Assembly (NCBI GenBank): GCA_018389105.1 | Contig: JACATO010001052.1 | Coordinates: 87,501 to 151,500, forward strand | Length of the DNA: 64,000 nucleotides | Direction: 5' to 3' | DNA from: Nautilus pompilius | Taxonomy: Eukaryota; Mollusca; Cephalopoda; Nautilida; Nautilidae | Shown here: piece after piece, positions 2,851 to 45,462 of the stretch | Layout of the letters: the number at the start of each line of letters is the position of its first letter | How positions within the stretch are numbered: position 1 is the stretch's first letter | Translations under genes and position numbers: made by a program | Notes under the pieces: generated by a model | Seen by the model: only the letters and a program-made list of their open reading frames with translations | The model's database searches: none | What the model was told of the DNA's origin: nothing

Positions 2851-2854
2851 GTCT

Positions 2855-2955
2855 CTCTCTCTCTGTGTGTGTACTGACGTCATCTCTCTGTGTACCGACG
2901 TCATCTCTCTGTGTACCGACGTCATCTCTCTGTGTACTGACGTCATATCTCTCTC

Positions 2956-2987
<32 letters not shown>

Positions 2988-3051
2988 GCTGTGTGTGTAC
3001 TGACGTAATCTCTCTCTGTGTAATAATGTCTCCTCTCTGTGTGTCTCGACA

Positions 3052-3089
<38 letters not shown>

Positions 3090-11163: not shown

Positions 11164-11625
11164 ATTCTGAGCTTTATTCCCCCCGTGTTCTTACTGCTTG
11201 TCTGAACTTTACCCCCCCTGTGTTCTTAGTGATTATCTGAGCTTTATTCTCCCCGTATTCTTAGTGCTTGTCTGAGCTTTATCCCCCCGTGTTCTTCTTG
11301 TTTGAGCTTTATTCTCCCCATATGCTTAGTGCTTGTCGAGCTTTATCCCCCACGTATTCTTAGTGCTCGTCTGAGCTTTATCCACCCCCCGTGTTCTTCT
11401 TGTTTGAGCTTTATTCTCCCCATATTCTTAGTGCTTGTCGAGCTTTATTACCAATGTGTTCTTAGTGATTATCTGAGCTTTATTCCCCGTGTTCTTAGTG
11501 CTTGTCTGAGCTTTATTCATCCTGTTGTTAGTGATTATCTGAGCTTTATTCCCCCGTTTCCTTAGTGATTGCCTGAGTTGTATTCCCCTGTGTTCTTAAA
11601 GATTGTCGGAACTTTATTCCCTATA
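11164..11625. repeat. Minisatellite, 35-38 bp unit, about 14 copies
   Basis: The unit reads GAGCTTTATTCCCCCCGTGT followed by TCTTAGTGCTTGTCT, with variable C-run length and some shortened units. Divergence between copies is moderate. It directly follows the Tc1 fragment at 10.9-11.1 kb. Confidence 0.9.
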
Positions 11626-12839: not shown

Positions 12840-12925
12840 TGACGGTGTCGCATGACGTCATTTCCGCTTCCTATGCGATGTTCGCGTTCCGCGCACCTTC
12901 ACAGCGATAAACGACGCCATCTTTG
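12840..12925. promoter_or_regulatory. Promoter-like cluster: CRE, ETS-type sites, YY1-like site
   Basis: TGACGTCA (12853-12860) is followed at once by TTTCCGCTTCCT, which holds two ETS-type cores. CpG-rich GATGTTCGCGTTCCGCGC and then GACGCCATCTTTG follow. The last reads CAAAGATGGCGTC on the minus strand, a YY1-like start motif. This arrangement is common in TATA-less housekeeping promoters. Direction is unclear. The minus-strand ATG in the motif opens only 20 codons (12920-12858). Confidence 0.45.
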
Positions 12926-15164: not shown

Positions 15165-15663
15165 TTCTCTCTCTCTCTGAACTGAAATCATCTCTGTCTG
15201 TATGTCGATATCATCTCTCTCTCTGTACTGACGTCATCTCTGTCTGTGTATTAACGTTATCACTCTCTGTGTGTCGACATCATCTCTCTCTATCTTTGTG
15301 TGCTGATGTCATCTATGTCTGTGTAATAATGTCATCTCTCTCAGTGTGTGTCGACATCATCTCTCTCTCTGTACTGACGTCATCTCTTCTGTGTGTCGAC
15401 ATCATCTCTCTCTGTACTGACGTCATCACTCTCTGTGCGTCGACATTATGTCTCTCTCTGTCTCTCTCTCTTTGTGTACTGACGTCATCACTCTCTGTGT
15501 GTCGACATTATGTCTCTCTCTGTCTCTCTCTCTTTGTGTACTGACGTCATCTCTTTCTGTGTGTCGACATTATGTCTCTCTCTGTCTCTCTCTCTCTCTC
15601 TCTCTTTGTGTACTGACGTCATCTCTCTCTGTGTAATAATGTCTTCTCTCTGTGTGTCTCGAC

Positions 15664-15726
<63 letters not shown>

Positions 15727-15735
15727 CTCTCTCAA
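15165..15735. repeat. CT microsatellite with CRE units, cluster 2
   Basis: About six exact TGACGTCA copies alternate with GTAATAATGTCATC- and GTGTCGACATCATC-type words, all joined by CT runs. From about 15440 a block of roughly 60-75 bp containing CGACATTATG and GTACTGACGTCATC repeats three times. A pure CT run closes the cluster at about 15670-15730. Confidence 0.9.
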
Positions 15736-17060: not shown

Positions 17061-18045
17061 GACAAGGTCAGCTCCATCCTAGACGTTATCTACAGCTTCA
17101 AGGCCAGCTCCCTCCATCTTAGACGTAATCTACAGCTTCAAGGCCAGCTCCATCCTAGACGTTATCTACAGCTTCAAGGCCAGCTCCCTCCATCTTAGAC
17201 GTTATCTACAGCTTCAAGGCCAGCTCCATCCTAGACGTTATCTACAGCTTCAAGGCCAGCTCCATCTTAGACGTTATCTACAGCTTCAAGGCCAGCTCCA
17301 TCCTAGACCTTATCTACAGCTTCAAGGCCAGCTCCATCCTAGACGTTATCTACAGCTTCAAGGCCAGCTCCATCCTAGACGTTATCTACAGCTTCAAGGC
17401 CATCTCCATCCTAGACGTTATCTACAGCTTCAAGGCCAGCTCCCTCCATCTTAGACGTTATCTACAGCTTCAAGGCCAGCTCCATCCTAGACGTTATCTA
17501 CAGCTTCAATGTCAGCTCTATCTTAGACGTTACCTACAGCTTCAATGTCAGCTCTATCTTAGACGTTATCTACAGCTTCAAGGCCAGCTCCATCTTAGAC
17601 GTTATCTACAGCTTCAAGGCCAGCTCCATCCTAGACGTTATCTACAGCTTCAATGTCAGCTCTATCTTAGACGTTATCTACAGCTTCAATGTCAGCTCTA
17701 TCTTAGACGTTATCTACAGCTTCAATGTCAGCTCTATCTTAGACGTTATCTACAGCTTCAGGGCCAGCTCCATCCTAGCCGTTATCTACAGCTAAAAGGC
17801 CAGCTCCATCTTAGACGTTATCTACAGCTTCAAGGCCAGCTCCATCTTAGACGTTATCTACAGCTTCAAGGCCAGCTCCATCCTAGACGTTATCTATAGC
17901 TTTGTCAACTCCATCTTAGACGTTATCTACAGCTTCAATGTCAGCTCCATCTTAGACGTTATCTACAGCTTCCATGTCAGCTCCATCTTAGACGTTATCT
18001 ACAGCTTCAATGCCAGCTCCATCCTAGACGTTATCTACAGCTTCA
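17061..18045. repeat. Minisatellite, 36-bp unit, about 27 copies
   Basis: The unit is CTACAGCTTCAAGGCCAGCT then CCATCCTAGACGTTAT. A few copies are 40 bp long through an extra CCCT-type insertion. One variant (AATGTCAGCTCTATCTTAG) is clustered at 17508-17750, while the AAGGCC variant fills the ends, which indicates local spread of variants. One frame is free of stops through 36-bp copies but has no ATG. Confidence 0.95.
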
Positions 18046-18049
18046 AATG

Positions 18050-20425: not shown

Positions 20426-20427
20426 TC

Positions 20428-20439
20428 TCTCTCTCTCTC

Positions 20440-20470
<31 letters not shown>

Positions 20471-20554
20471 CTCTCGTACTGATGTCGTCATCTCTCTCGT
20501 ACTGACGTCATCTCTCTCGTACTGACGTCATCTCTCTCTCTCTCTCGTACTGAC

Positions 20555-20639
<85 letters not shown>

Positions 20640-26549: not shown

Positions 26550-26652
26550 CTGCTCTCTCTTTCTCTCTCTCTCTCCCTTGTGTACTGACGTCATCTCTGT
26601 CTGTGTAATAACGTCATCACTCTCTATGGGCCGACATCATCTCCTCTCTCTC

Positions 26653-26686
<34 letters not shown>

Positions 26687-27334
26687 CTCTCTCCTCTCTT
26701 TGTGTACTGACGTCATCTCTGTCTATAATAACGTCATCACTCTCTGTGGGCCGACATCATCATCTCTCTCTCTCTCTCTCCTCTCTCTTTGTGTACTGAC
26801 GTCATCTTTGTCTTTGTAATAACGTCATCTTTCTCTGTGGGCCGACATCATCTCTCTCTCTCTCTCTTTGTGTACTGACGTCATCTTTGTCTGTGTAATA
26901 ACGTCATCTTTCTCTGTGGGCCGACATCATCTCTCTCTCTCTCTCTTTGTGTACTGATGTCATCTCTGTCTATAATAACGTCATCACTCTCTGTGGGCCG
27001 ACATCATCTCACTCTCTCTCTCTTTTTGTGTACTGACGTCATCTCTGTCTGTGTAATAACGTCATCACTCTCTGTGGGCCGACATCATCTCTCTCTCTCT
27101 CTCTTTTTGTGTACTGACGTCATCTCTGTCTGTGTAATAACGTCATCTTTCTCTGTGGGCCGACATCATCTCTCTCTCTCTCTCTCTCTTTGTGTACTGA
27201 CGTCATCTCTGTCTGTGTAATAACGTCATCACTCTCTGTGGGGCGACATCATCTCTCTCTCTCTCTCTCTTTTTGTGTACTGACGTCATCTCTGTCTGTG
27301 TAATAACGTCATCACTCTCTGTGGGCCGACATCA

Positions 27335-27383
<49 letters not shown>

Positions 27384-28095: not shown

Positions 28096-28300
28096 TGTGT
28101 GGTGTGTGACGTCAATGATAAATCCTTGGATGAAGTAATCTCGCTTTCACCATTTTACTGACCGCTGTAAAGGGAGACGAAGAGATTCCCGTGAACTCGG
28201 CAGCCGTGGTCTCTTACTGATGTGCGCTCCACCGGGAGCGCTACCCCATCATTAACTAAACCGGTTTCCTTCTTCGGCTAAATCTCAATGGAGGTTGTCG
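27395..28300. other. CpG-rich region without a recognised gene
   Basis: CpG is frequent from 27540 to 27900, with CCGGCCGTAGCC-type words. No family-matching frame is present. Confidence 0.4.
28047..28110. repeat. (GT)n microsatellite ending in a CRE
   Basis: The GT run passes directly into TGTGACGTCAATG. TGACGTCA occupies 28107-28114, a CRE outside the CT/GA arrays. Confidence 0.9.
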
Positions 28301-28302
28301 GG

Positions 28303-28638
28303 CGGTGGATTCTCGCTGAACTCTCGACTGACCGGCGGTGGATTCTCGCTGAAGTCTCGTCTGAACGGCGGTCGATTCTCGCTGAACTCTCGTCTCAACG
28401 GCGGTGGATTCTCGCTGAAGTCTCGTCTGACCGGCGGTCGATTCTCGCTGAACTCTCGTCTGACCGGCGGTGGATTCTCGCTGAAGTCTCGTCTGACCGG
28501 CGGTCGATTCTCGCTGAACTCTCGTCTGACCGGCGGTGGATTCTCGCTGAACTCTCGTCTGACCGGCGGTGGATTCTCGCTGAACTCTCGTCTGACCGGC
28601 GGTCGATTCTCGCTGAACTCTCGTCTCACCGGCGGTGA
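28303..28638. repeat. Minisatellite, 33-bp unit, 10 copies
   Basis: The unit is GGCGGTGGATTCTCGCTGAA followed by CTCTCGTCTGACC, with almost no indels. Because 33 is a multiple of three, long frames stay open on both strands (11-residue periodicity). They have no outside support and are not called as genes. It sits in a CpG-rich stretch. Confidence 0.95.
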
Positions 28639-30775: not shown

Positions 30776-30806
30776 GGAGAGAGAGAGAGAAGAGAGAGAG
30801 AGGAGA

Positions 30807-30852
<46 letters not shown>

Positions 30853-30856
30853 TCAG

Positions 30857-30893
<37 letters not shown>

Positions 30894-30990
30894 GAGAGAG
30901 AGAAGGAGAGAGAGAGGAGAGAGGAGCGATGAGAGAAGAGAGCGAGAGAGCGAGAGAGAGATGACGTCAGTTACGAGCGAGAGAGAGAGA
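30776..30990. repeat. GA and GAT microsatellites with one CRE unit
   Basis: A (GAT)n run of about 15 units at 30807-30852 runs directly into GATGTCAGTAC and then (GA)n. A perfect TGACGTCA lies at about 30962 in the context GAGATGACGTCAGTTACGAG. The run-on of GAT into the CRE-like word hints at how the family arose. Confidence 0.9.
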
Positions 30991-34162: not shown

Positions 34163-34226
34163 AGAGAGAGAGAGAGAGAGAGAGAGATGACGTCAGTATG
34201 AGAGAGAGAGACAAAGAGAGAGAGAG
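34163..34226. repeat. GA microsatellite with a single CRE unit
   Basis: A (GA)n run holds one GATGACGTCAGTATGAGAG unit, the minimal form of the family seen expanded at 40.1-41.9 kb. Confidence 0.9.
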
Positions 34227-40099: not shown

Positions 40100-41861
40100 G
40101 GGAGAGAGAGAGAGAGAGAGAAAGATGACGTCAGTACGAGAGAGAGAGAGCGAGCGATGAAGTCAGAACGAGAGATGACGTCAGTACGAGAGATAGAGAG
40201 ATGATGTCAGTACGAGAGAGATAGCGATGAATCAGAACGACGGATGATGTCATACGAGAGAGAGATGACGTCAATACGAGAGAGATGACGTCAGAACGAG
40301 AGATGGAGATGACGTCAGTACAAGAGAGCGAGAGCGATGACGTCCGAACGAGAGATACAGATGACGTTAGTACGAGAGAGATAGAGAGATGACGTCAGAA
40401 CGAGAGATACAGATGACGTTAGTACGAGAGAGATAGAGAGATGACGTCAGAACGAGAGATACAGATGACGTTAGTACGAGAGAGAGGGAGAGAGAGCGAT
40501 GACGTCAGAACGAGAGATGGAGATGACGTCAGTACAAGAGAGCGAGATGACGTTAGTACGAGAGAGATAGAGAGATGACGTCAGTACGAGAGATAGAGAG
40601 ATGATGTCAGTACGAGAGAGTGAGATGACGTCAGAACGAGAGAGAGATATGACGTCAGTACGAGAGATAGAGAGATGATGTCAGTACGAGAGAGTGAGAT
40701 GACGTCAATACGAGAGAGAGTGATGACGTCATAACGAGAGAGACATGACGTCAATACGAGAGATACAGATGACGTCAGTACGAGAGAGTGAGATGACGTC
40801 AGAACGAGAGAGAGATATGACGTCAGTACGAGAGATAGAGAGATGACGTCAGTACAAGAGAGCGAGATGACGTCAATACGAGAGAGATAGATGACGTCAG
40901 AACGAGAGAGAGCGATGACGTCATAACGAGAGATACAGATGACGTCAGTACGAGAGATAGAGAGATGATGTCAGTACGAGAGAGTGAGATGACGTCAGAA
41001 CGAGAGAGAGATATGACGTCAGTACGAGAGATAGAGAGATGATGTCAGTACGAGAGAGAGAGATGACGTCAATACGAGAGAGTGATGACGTCATAACGAG
41101 AGAGACATGACGTCAATACGAGAGATACAGATGACGTCAGTACGAGAGAGTGAGATGACGTCAGAACGAGAGAGAGATATGACGTCAGTACGAGAGAGAG
41201 AGATGACGTCAGTACAAGAGAGCGAGATGACGTCAATACGAGAGAGATAGATGACGTCAGAACGAGAGAGAGCGATGACGTCATAACGAGAGATACAGAT
41301 GACGTCAGTACGAGAGATAGAGAGATGATGTCAGTACGAGAGAGTGATGACGTCAGAACGAGAGAGAGATATGACGTCAGTACGAGAGATAGAGAGATGA
41401 CATCAGTACGAGAGAGATAGCGATGAATTCAGAACGAGAGATGATGTCAATACAAGAGAGAGATGACGTCCGAACGAGAGAGAGAGAGATGACGTCAATA
41501 CGAGCGAGAGCGATGACGTCCGAACGAGAGAGAGAGAGATGACGTCAGAACGAGAGATACAGATGACGTTAGTACGAGAGAGAGGGAGAGAGAGTGATGA
41601 CGTCAGAACGAGAGATGGAGATGACGTCAGTACAAGAGAGCGAGATGATGTCAGTACGAGAGATACAGATGACGTCAGTACGAGAGAGAGATGACGTCAG
41701 AACGAGAGAGAGATGACGTCAGTACGAGAGATACAGATGACGTTAGTACGAGAGAGAGGGAGATGACGTCAGAACGAGATAGAGATGACGTTAGTACGAG
41801 AGAGAGATGACGTCAGAACGAGAGAGAGATGACGTCAGTACGAGAGATACAGATGACGTTA

Positions 41862-41921
<60 letters not shown>

Positions 41922-41922
41922 A
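40100..41922. repeat. Large CRE-bearing GA array, cluster 7
   Basis: About 1.8 kb consists of GATGACGTCAGTACGAGAG and GATGACGTCAGAACGAGAG units with GA/GATA spacers of 4-20 bases. By eye I count around fifty exact TGACGTCA sites, plus variants (GACGTTAG, GATGTCAG, GACGTCCG). A higher-order unit is visible: 40600-40963 is repeated as 40964-41323, and a third copy starts at 41324. The array ends in (GA)n. The only long frame (minus, 41284-41069) is a product of the repeat. Confidence 0.95.
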
Positions 41923-42990: not shown

Positions 42991-43590
42991 ATGATACGAT
43001 AGACTTGTCAGGCCGACTCTCGGTGTGGACAGGTTAGCCAGTGATATGATAGACTTGTCAGGCCGACTCTCGGTGTGGACAGGCTAGCCAGTGATATGAT
43101 AGACTTGTCAGGCCGACTCTCGGTGTGGACATGCTAGCCAGTGATATGATAGACTTGTCAGGCCGACTCTCGCTGTGGACAGGCTAGCCAGTGATATGAT
43201 AGACTTGTCAGGCCGACTCTCGGTGTGGACAGGTTAGCCAGTGATATGATAGACTTGTCAGGCAGACTCTCGGTGTGGACATTTTAGCCAGTGATATGAT
43301 AGACTTGTCAGGCCGACTCTCGGTGTGGACAGGTTAGCCAGTGATATGATAGACTTGTCAGGCCGACTCTCGGTGTGGACAGGTTAGCCAGTGATATGAT
43401 AGACTTGTCAGGCCGACTCTCGCTGTGGACAGGTTAGCCAGTGATATGATAGACTTGTCAGGCTGACTCTCGGTGTGGACAGGTTAGCCAGTGATACGAT
43501 AGACTTGTCAGGCCGACTCTCGGTGTGGACAGGTTAGCCAGTGATATGATAGACTTGTCAGGCCGACTCTCGCTGTGGACAGGTTAGCCA
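42991..43590. repeat. 50-bp tandem repeat, 12 copies, no length variation
   Basis: The word AGACTTGTCAGGCCGACTCT recurs at exactly 50-base spacing from 43001 to 43551. Copies differ by a few substitutions only (CGGTGTGG or CGCTGTGG; AGGTTAG, AGGCTAG or ATGCTAG). High identity implies recent expansion or homogenisation. Confidence 0.95.
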
Positions 43591-43594
43591 GACT

Positions 43595-45104: not shown

Positions 45105-45462
45105 GGGGCGAGCCCCAGACCCGTCGTCGGGTGGTGAGAGATATAGTGGAAAGCCGAGGTTTAGGGGATGCAGATGAGAGTATTCCCAGGGAGTTAGGCG
45201 AACCCCAGACCCGTCGTCGGGTGGTGAGAGATACAGTAGAAAGCCGAGGTTTAGGGGATGCAGATGCGAGTATTCCCAGGGAGTTAGGCGAACCCCAGAC
45301 CCGTCGTCGGGTGGTGAGAGATACAGTAGAAAGCCGAGGTTTAGGGGATGCAGATGCGAGTATTCCCAGGGAGTTAGGCGAGCCCCAGACCCGTCGTTGG
45401 GTGGTGAGAGATACAGTAGAAAGCCGACGTTTAGGGGATGCAGATGCGAGTATTCCCAGGTA
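45105..45462. repeat. 90-bp tandem repeat, 4 copies
   Basis: CCGTCGTCGGGTGGTGAGAG recurs at 45121, 45211, 45301 and 45391 with few substitutions. Both strands stay open: + gives 30-residue repeats (VESRGLGDADASIPRELGEP) and - gives GILASASPKPRLSTVSLTT repeats. No coding support is seen. The array lies between the candidate first exon (ends 44917) and the acceptor at 46442, so it would be intronic for the EFCAB12-like gene. Confidence 0.95.

Follow-up and report, generated by a model that had tools for sequence, protein, structure and literature searches.

A dispersed GA-microsatellite repeat carrying palindromic CRE octamers in the genome of Nautilus pompilius

Introduction

How does a GA microsatellite come to hold dozens of copies of one perfect palindrome? 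The question is raised by a locus of the cephalopod Nautilus pompilius (assembly GCA_018389105.1, contig JACATO010001052.1), in which a preliminary description of a 64,000-nucleotide stretch (referred to here as the window) had pointed to an array of the octamer TGACGTCA. This word is the exact palindromic CRE (according to the portion of PMC9775316 consulted) and the array could be a platform or sink for bZIP factors. The alternative given at the time was a process acting on the GA tracts themselves. We have analyzed the array, related arrays elsewhere and the whole assembly (727,640,739 bases in 2,558 contigs), using as control word the letters of TGACGTCA in reverse order.

Among the matches listed in open-licence PMC text no title describes this repeat, and neither of two 12-mers of its unit is present in the PMC texts among the matches listed. 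The words "simple repeat" and "microsatellite" are absent from the main text of the Nautilus genome paper (PMC8257504). A cephalopod repeat paper, as far as the matches listed for it go, makes no mention of the repeat either, and simple repeats were set aside in that study.

Results

The array and its neighborhood

The dense GA/TGACGTCA array at positions 40100-41922 is confirmed as real. It contains 71 copies of the octamer, 48 of them exact, 22 with one mismatch and one with two, while in 500 dinucleotide-shuffled versions of the array exact copies averaged 0.16 and never exceeded two, so that the figure of about fifty sites, said to be far above chance, was well founded. For the whole window the corresponding values are 73 exact copies against a mean of 0.64 and a maximum of four (100 shuffles). 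The regular spacing that had been noticed was also found: of the 70 distances between consecutive copies (up to two mismatches allowed), 62 lie within 22-28 bp, mostly at about 24 bp, and TRF reports a 24-bp unit in 72.5 copies. Two of these 70 distances are odd and all 47 distances between exact sites are even, as expected for a spacer that grows or shrinks by GA dinucleotide steps.

The one-base variants of the core are of few kinds (TGATGTCA nine times, TGACGTTA eight, TGACGTCC three and two others once each). The flank variants GTACGAG and GAACGAG, described before, were recovered together with ATACGAG. Two blocks within the array are nearly identical over 156 nt (Table 1), indicating that many of its copies are recent mutual duplicates and hence not independent of each other.

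Six more GA/TC stretches with TGACGTCA, missed in the preliminary description, are found in the window (four on the opposite strand, two with a single exact copy each), and its octamer density (73 in 64 kb) is much above the genome mean (93,914 in 727.6 Mb). One copy, at 28107-28114, borders a GT microsatellite and not a GA one. A Pfam scan of four of the ten ORFs tabulated in the window gave no match in any of them, and provided no gene context.

Table 1. Repeat features of the window (positions count from its first base).
Feature	Position	Strand	Details	Basis
Main array	40102..41921	+ (GA strand = +)	48 exact and 22 one-mismatch TGACGTCA units, GA spacers	sequence and counts
Left bounding tract	40102..40121	+	pure (GA)n	read from sequence
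Right bounding tract	41866..41921	+	(GA)n, 96% matches	TRF
Higher-order duplication within main array	40832..41347 (span)	+	40832-40987 vs 41192-41347, 99% identical, 156 nt	
Related array	2853..3086	-	2 exact cores, GTAC after both on the GA strand	
Related array	15167..15732	-	6 exact cores, GTAC after all	
Related array	20427..20638	-	3 exact cores, GTAC after all	
Related array	26553..27380	-	8 exact cores, GTAC after all; higher-order unit about 80 bp	
GA tract	30777..30990	+	1 exact and 1 one-mismatch core; exact core without GTAC after it	
GA tract	34164..34225	+	one exact core, without GTAC after it	
Other minisatellites	11166-11621, 17063-18046, 28301-28637, 42992-43591, 45107-45460		units 34, 36, 33, 50, 90 bp; 75 to 97% matches	TRF

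A family found throughout the genome

Exact TGACGTCA occurs 93,914 times in the assembly and the control word 19,528 times. When one mismatch is allowed the counts become 355,411 and 365,734. The 24 one-mismatch neighbors of TGACGTCA average 10,896 copies each, so that the exact word is 8.6-fold more frequent than its neighbors (1.35-fold for the control word). The preliminary description had made its reading depend on such an excess over neighboring 8-mers, and the excess is strong. The 8-mers that overlap TGACGTCA within the unit are likewise enriched. Pairs of exact octamers separated by 5-35 bp number 33,652 (control 88), and a strict unit pattern, GAGANNTGACGTCANNNNAGAGA, has 20,974 occurrences (control 1). 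Long-read assemblies do err in simple repeats, and chance or polishing errors in low-complexity sequence could be invoked to explain the arrays. An octamer excess over its neighbors that extends to the whole genome and is orientation-specific (see below) makes this scarcely credible, even if the assembled lengths of individual arrays may not be right.

On the 1.05-Mb contig C1, 82 strict units were listed in 22 loci. From the 20,974 sites this would give very roughly 5,600 strict-unit loci in the genome, a figure extrapolated from that contig alone. Head-to-tail copies at many loci, the mark of a dispersed minisatellite, are seen in the tandem copies of the main array, in the excess of close pairs and in the 20 arrays analyzed below. 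The GA-CRE arrays, as we call them, are one real genome-wide family, a dispersed minisatellite in kind, and what sets the family apart is its word, its locked orientation and the lack of a visible carrier.

The octamer is also found outside this family. Sixteen stretches (146,776 bases) chosen by contig number and position, irrespective of the octamer, contained 24 exact copies, of which four were in a GA/TC array (L019), five were lone and 15 belonged to an unrelated satellite (L021, positions 1-1466 of G000:C400:40001-44418) with 110/62-bp periods and other spacers, where they are all the exact TGACGTCA copies of the locus. The octamer is thus present in at least two repeat families. Among the 24 longer loci (L009-L027 and L045-L049), 10 of the 11 clusters with at least two exact octamers are GA/TC arrays, the remaining one being the L021 satellite. 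Lone octamers outside GA tracts were seen at window positions 12853, 13281 and 38627 and in loci L033-L042 and L044. They seem to exceed the Markov background (at least 10 within the initial 183 kb of C2, with about 2.8 expected per 295 kb), and two of these loci (L035 and L040) could by eye be taken for reverse copies of a single dispersed repeat.

Anatomy and orientation of the unit

For a closer look at the unit we have delimited 20 arrays by script, each with at least one exact octamer and at least two GA/CT tracts separated by gaps of up to 60 bp (nine from contig C1, three from C2, one from C200 and seven from the window). Given this rule, and the fact that the C1 and C2 loci had been fetched for holding the octamer, the presence of the octamer and the GA/TC setting of these arrays are partly true by definition. 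Read on the GA strand, the unit consists of (GA)n, T or G followed by A, TGACGTCA, GTAC, A and again (GA)n. The four bases following the 194 exact cores are GTAC in 96 cases, GGAG in 24, GAAC in 16 and ATAC in 10, the rest being others. A tally made without regard to the core gave a similar picture: of 280 islands of 8-26 bp lying between GA tracts, 153 hold an exact core and 46 a core with one change (0 and 1, respectively, after shuffling of the islands), in DNA much of which had been fetched for holding the octamer. The smallest case is a locus (L043) with a single unit within a TC tract.

The orientation of the insert relative to its host tract is fixed. In the 20 arrays GTAC follows the core on the GA strand 96 times and never precedes it. 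Genome-wide, the intact unit GAGANNTGACGTCAGTACAGAGA has 10,530 occurrences and a search for the reversed insert in the GA strand with flexible edges found none, a comparison between patterns of different shape that covers units with intact GTAC. Palindromes created independently in different GA tracts would not have fixed the side of GTAC, and the locked orientation therefore argues for a single, common origin of the unit.

Array edges and the search for a carrier

Nearly all arrays end in a GA or CT tract (19 of the 20 left ends and all 20 right ends, 39 of 40 altogether), which is in part a result of the delimiting rule. The left end of L013 starts with the octamer itself. Beyond these ends, 39 flanks were compared with one another by blastn (E 1e-3, low-complexity filter). 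Of these, 33 had the full length of 495 bp and the shortest measured 70 bp, and no match was obtained. A larger carrier transposon was considered and discarded, there being no sign of it in these flanks, which share no sequence within 495 bp.

The unit might instead travel with a small non-autonomous mobile element. The precedent is the oyster Crassostrea gigas, where Cg_HINE elements of the Helentron superfamily carry short, dispersed, satellite-like arrays (PMC7492417, consulted in part). The resemblance is considerable, since both are found in a mollusc genome as thousands of short, scattered tandem arrays and both involve a microsatellite segment, in the oyster case inside the element (same portion of PMC7492417). 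Besides, a locked orientation would come naturally to an element. In the oyster, however, the arrays are framed on both sides by conserved flanks of the element, while in the 39 flanks of our 20 arrays no conserved sequence was found on either side and GA or TC repeat stands at 39 of the 40 ends. The unit lengths are also different, about 24 bp here and mostly 160-180 bp for the Cg_HINE monomers (PMC7492417, as far as consulted). On balance we think that a small element of this kind is rather unlikely to be behind the arrays.

Conservation of the core and of its flank

One way to see which part of the unit matters is to fix one segment and let the other vary. Throughout the genome there are 20,974 units with an exact core and GTAC left free, 19,535 with an exact GTAC and the core left free (1,049 for the control) and 10,530 with both exact. 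In other words, GTAC is intact in 50% of the core-intact units, and the core, which is twice as long, in 54% of the GTAC-intact ones (57% after subtraction of the control). Per base this amounts to a divergence of 6.8-7.4% for the octamer and 15.8% for GTAC. By this measure the octamer is kept about two-fold better per base than GTAC genome-wide, a factor to which no clean error bar can be attached because copies within arrays are not independent. A narrower pattern (GAGATA before the core and GTACAGAGA after it) has an exact core in 2,369 of 4,081 occurrences (58%).

The 20 arrays point in the same direction. Counting distinct units once per array, GTAC diverges by 25.8% (60 units) and the core by 8.2% (47 units), two units with more than three core changes having been left out. 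The ratio is 3.1 (2.2-4.9 by bootstrap over arrays). Restricted to units with no more than one change, the comparison gives 4.7% (15/320) for the core and 8.1% (12/148) for GTAC, a 1.7-fold difference based on few events. This small gap indicates that much of the flank difference reflects replacement of whole flanks from one subfamily to another rather than point mutation. The first 100 listed units, with 38 changes in 800 core bases (contigs C1 to C8) and 24 in 400 GTAC bases (C1 and C2), and with GTAC exact in 79 and the core in 65, suggest near-equal conservation. We have given more weight to the whole-genome intact rates. Sliding an 8-mer along the unit in the 20 arrays, the copies fall from 194 for TGACGTCA to 115 for GTCAGTAC and 74 for CAGTACAG, and the arrays containing them from 20 (a consequence of how they were chosen) to 18 and 13.

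The core could look better conserved than it is if GTAC were being lost into the GA tract beside it. The T at the left of the core also borders GA. In one tally it ranks with the better kept bases, and on that count erosion at the GA edge would not by itself account well for the difference between core and flank, though a smaller tally has this T as the least kept base of the core (12.8%). Inside the core, the CpG is intact in 10,530 of 13,169 units (80%) when GTAC and the remaining six bases of the core are fixed. Divergence per base is about 10.6% for the CpG and about 5.5% for the other six, so that the CpG changes fastest. This is what CpG decay looks like, and it hints at methylation in the germ line.

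The preliminary description had proposed that the core is the conserved part and that the sites stay intact while their flanks vary. The first claim survives in a weaker form than it was given (7% against 16% genome-wide, 8% against 26% in the 20 arrays). The second has to be corrected, as 22 of the 71 copies of the main array differ from TGACGTCA by one base and one of the 71 by two, although the sites are indeed kept better than their neighbors.

Discussion

Are the sites functional CREs?

The arrays could be clusters of functional CREs, bound by CREB/ATF bZIP factors as a sink, an enhancer platform or an organizer of chromatin, with the octamer under selection. The word itself is what such a role would call for, and it appears in its perfect consensus form 48 times in the main array and tens of thousands of times in the genome. 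Its divergence per base is about half that of GTAC, and in one array (L031) 23 cores are exact and one is changed even though the spacers differ. However, selection on each of tens of thousands of sites would hardly be possible, and little excess conservation is left once the count is limited to single changes. Moreover, the core CpG is the fastest to decay, as expected of methylated DNA, and CpG methylation hinders CREB binding. A functional role of this kind seems to us unlikely.

Does the core promote its own spread?

The core might also matter for the propagation of the repeat. The CRE-like heptamer M26 is a recombination hotspot in fission and budding yeast (PMC3534124; PMC9775316; both consulted in part). 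A bZIP protein bound at ATGACGT could likewise make a meiotic hotspot of the arrays, so that those with intact cores would break, be repaired and expand more often. On the GA strand the heptamer has 195 occurrences, distributed over all 20 arrays (which had been chosen for the overlapping octamer), and the better preservation of the core relative to its flank would fit. On the other hand, the native TGACGTCA in ade6 is neither bound by Atf1-Pcr1 nor a hotspot, according to the consulted portion of PMC9775316.

A further objection comes from the behavior of hotspots in general. The copy that breaks is usually converted to the sequence of its partner, and hotspots tend to be lost and not spread. 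We regard a meiotic hotspot as quite improbable. The known M26/CRE hotspots and the GA-CRE repeat share an ATF/CREB-type binding word, but the former are single sites with a demonstrated dependence on bZIP proteins (PMC9775316 and PMC3534124, in the portions consulted) and the latter are tandem arrays with a putative binding factor.

In a more general version, a bZIP factor at the CRE might open the GA tracts to breakage and copying. Units with an intact CRE would multiply most, leaving behind tens of thousands of perfect CREs as the by-product of a self-spreading repeat with a transcription factor site as its cis-requirement. This is an improbable conjecture too. If true, such a repeat would be a standing reservoir of cAMP- and stress-responsive elements.

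A proposed origin: a single insert copied between GA tracts

Our preferred reading is that the GA-CRE family probably descends from one ancestral insert in a GA microsatellite, which multiplied in place and spread, anchored by GA, to thousands of GA/TC tracts. The insert, approximately TATGACGTCAGTAC, would have arisen once. Multiplication in place would have proceeded by slippage and unequal exchange, for which the GA-step spacing and the 99% identical higher-order duplication provide support. The spread to other tracts would have required homology-guided copying, for which gene conversion, template switching and break-induced replication, all anchored in the GA repeats, are candidates. Such anchoring would explain the orientation lock, the GA/TC sequence at nearly every end of the arrays fetched and the flanks that are not shared. 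Of the two alternatives in the preliminary description, a process acting on GA tracts is thus the one that better fits the anatomy of the arrays. The better kept octamer could mean that an intact core favors the multiplication of the copy that contains it, or that weak functional constraint acts on the core, and we infer some bias toward intact-core units.

There are arguments against GA-anchored copying. With a mobile element that has GA ends of its own, orientation would be locked just as well and the array ends would look alike. Besides, the step from one locus to another is deduced from the arrays, and the 20 arrays come from few places.

Compound or interrupted GA microsatellites, the arrays of which are shaped by GA slippage and unequal exchange, are similar in these processes. 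They differ in that here the interruption is one word of 12-14 bp, in one orientation throughout the genome. Human satellite III is a tandem repeat tied to a stress factor by its binding words, and the GA-CRE repeat resembles the satellite III/HSF1 pair in being a tandem repeat with the binding words of one factor. Satellite III, though, has a pericentromeric location and is reported to be activated by HSF1, while the GA-CRE arrays are dispersed and their binding by a factor is putative.

If GA-anchored copying holds, the host repeat has fixed the orientation of a short insert that reached GA tracts by the thousand with no transposon in sight, and the family would be a natural test case for copying from microsatellite to microsatellite. 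In practical terms, sites contributed by the repeat would overwhelm any search for CRE motifs, ATAC footprinting or CREB ChIP done on the Nautilus genome.

Other content of the assembly

Two observations on the assembly are independent of the repeat. There are 117 COX1 matches distributed over many contigs, some with internal TAA or TAG (TGA does not count here, since it codes for an amino acid in animal mitochondria), and these are probably many nuclear mitochondrial copies, which cloud the mitochondrial reading of the assembly. The beta-sandwich domain PF14830, which we take to be a molluscan haemocyanin family, has 14 matches on two contigs, seven on each, and none in 14 prokaryote control genomes, in keeping with a molluscan host. 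The haemocyanin of Nautilus and octopus has seven units. The best single-unit matches also look cephalopod-like: one functional unit scores 613.8 bits with 4yd9_C and 593.5 with 1js8_A (presumably squid and octopus haemocyanin chains), the next single-unit chain being at 486.7.
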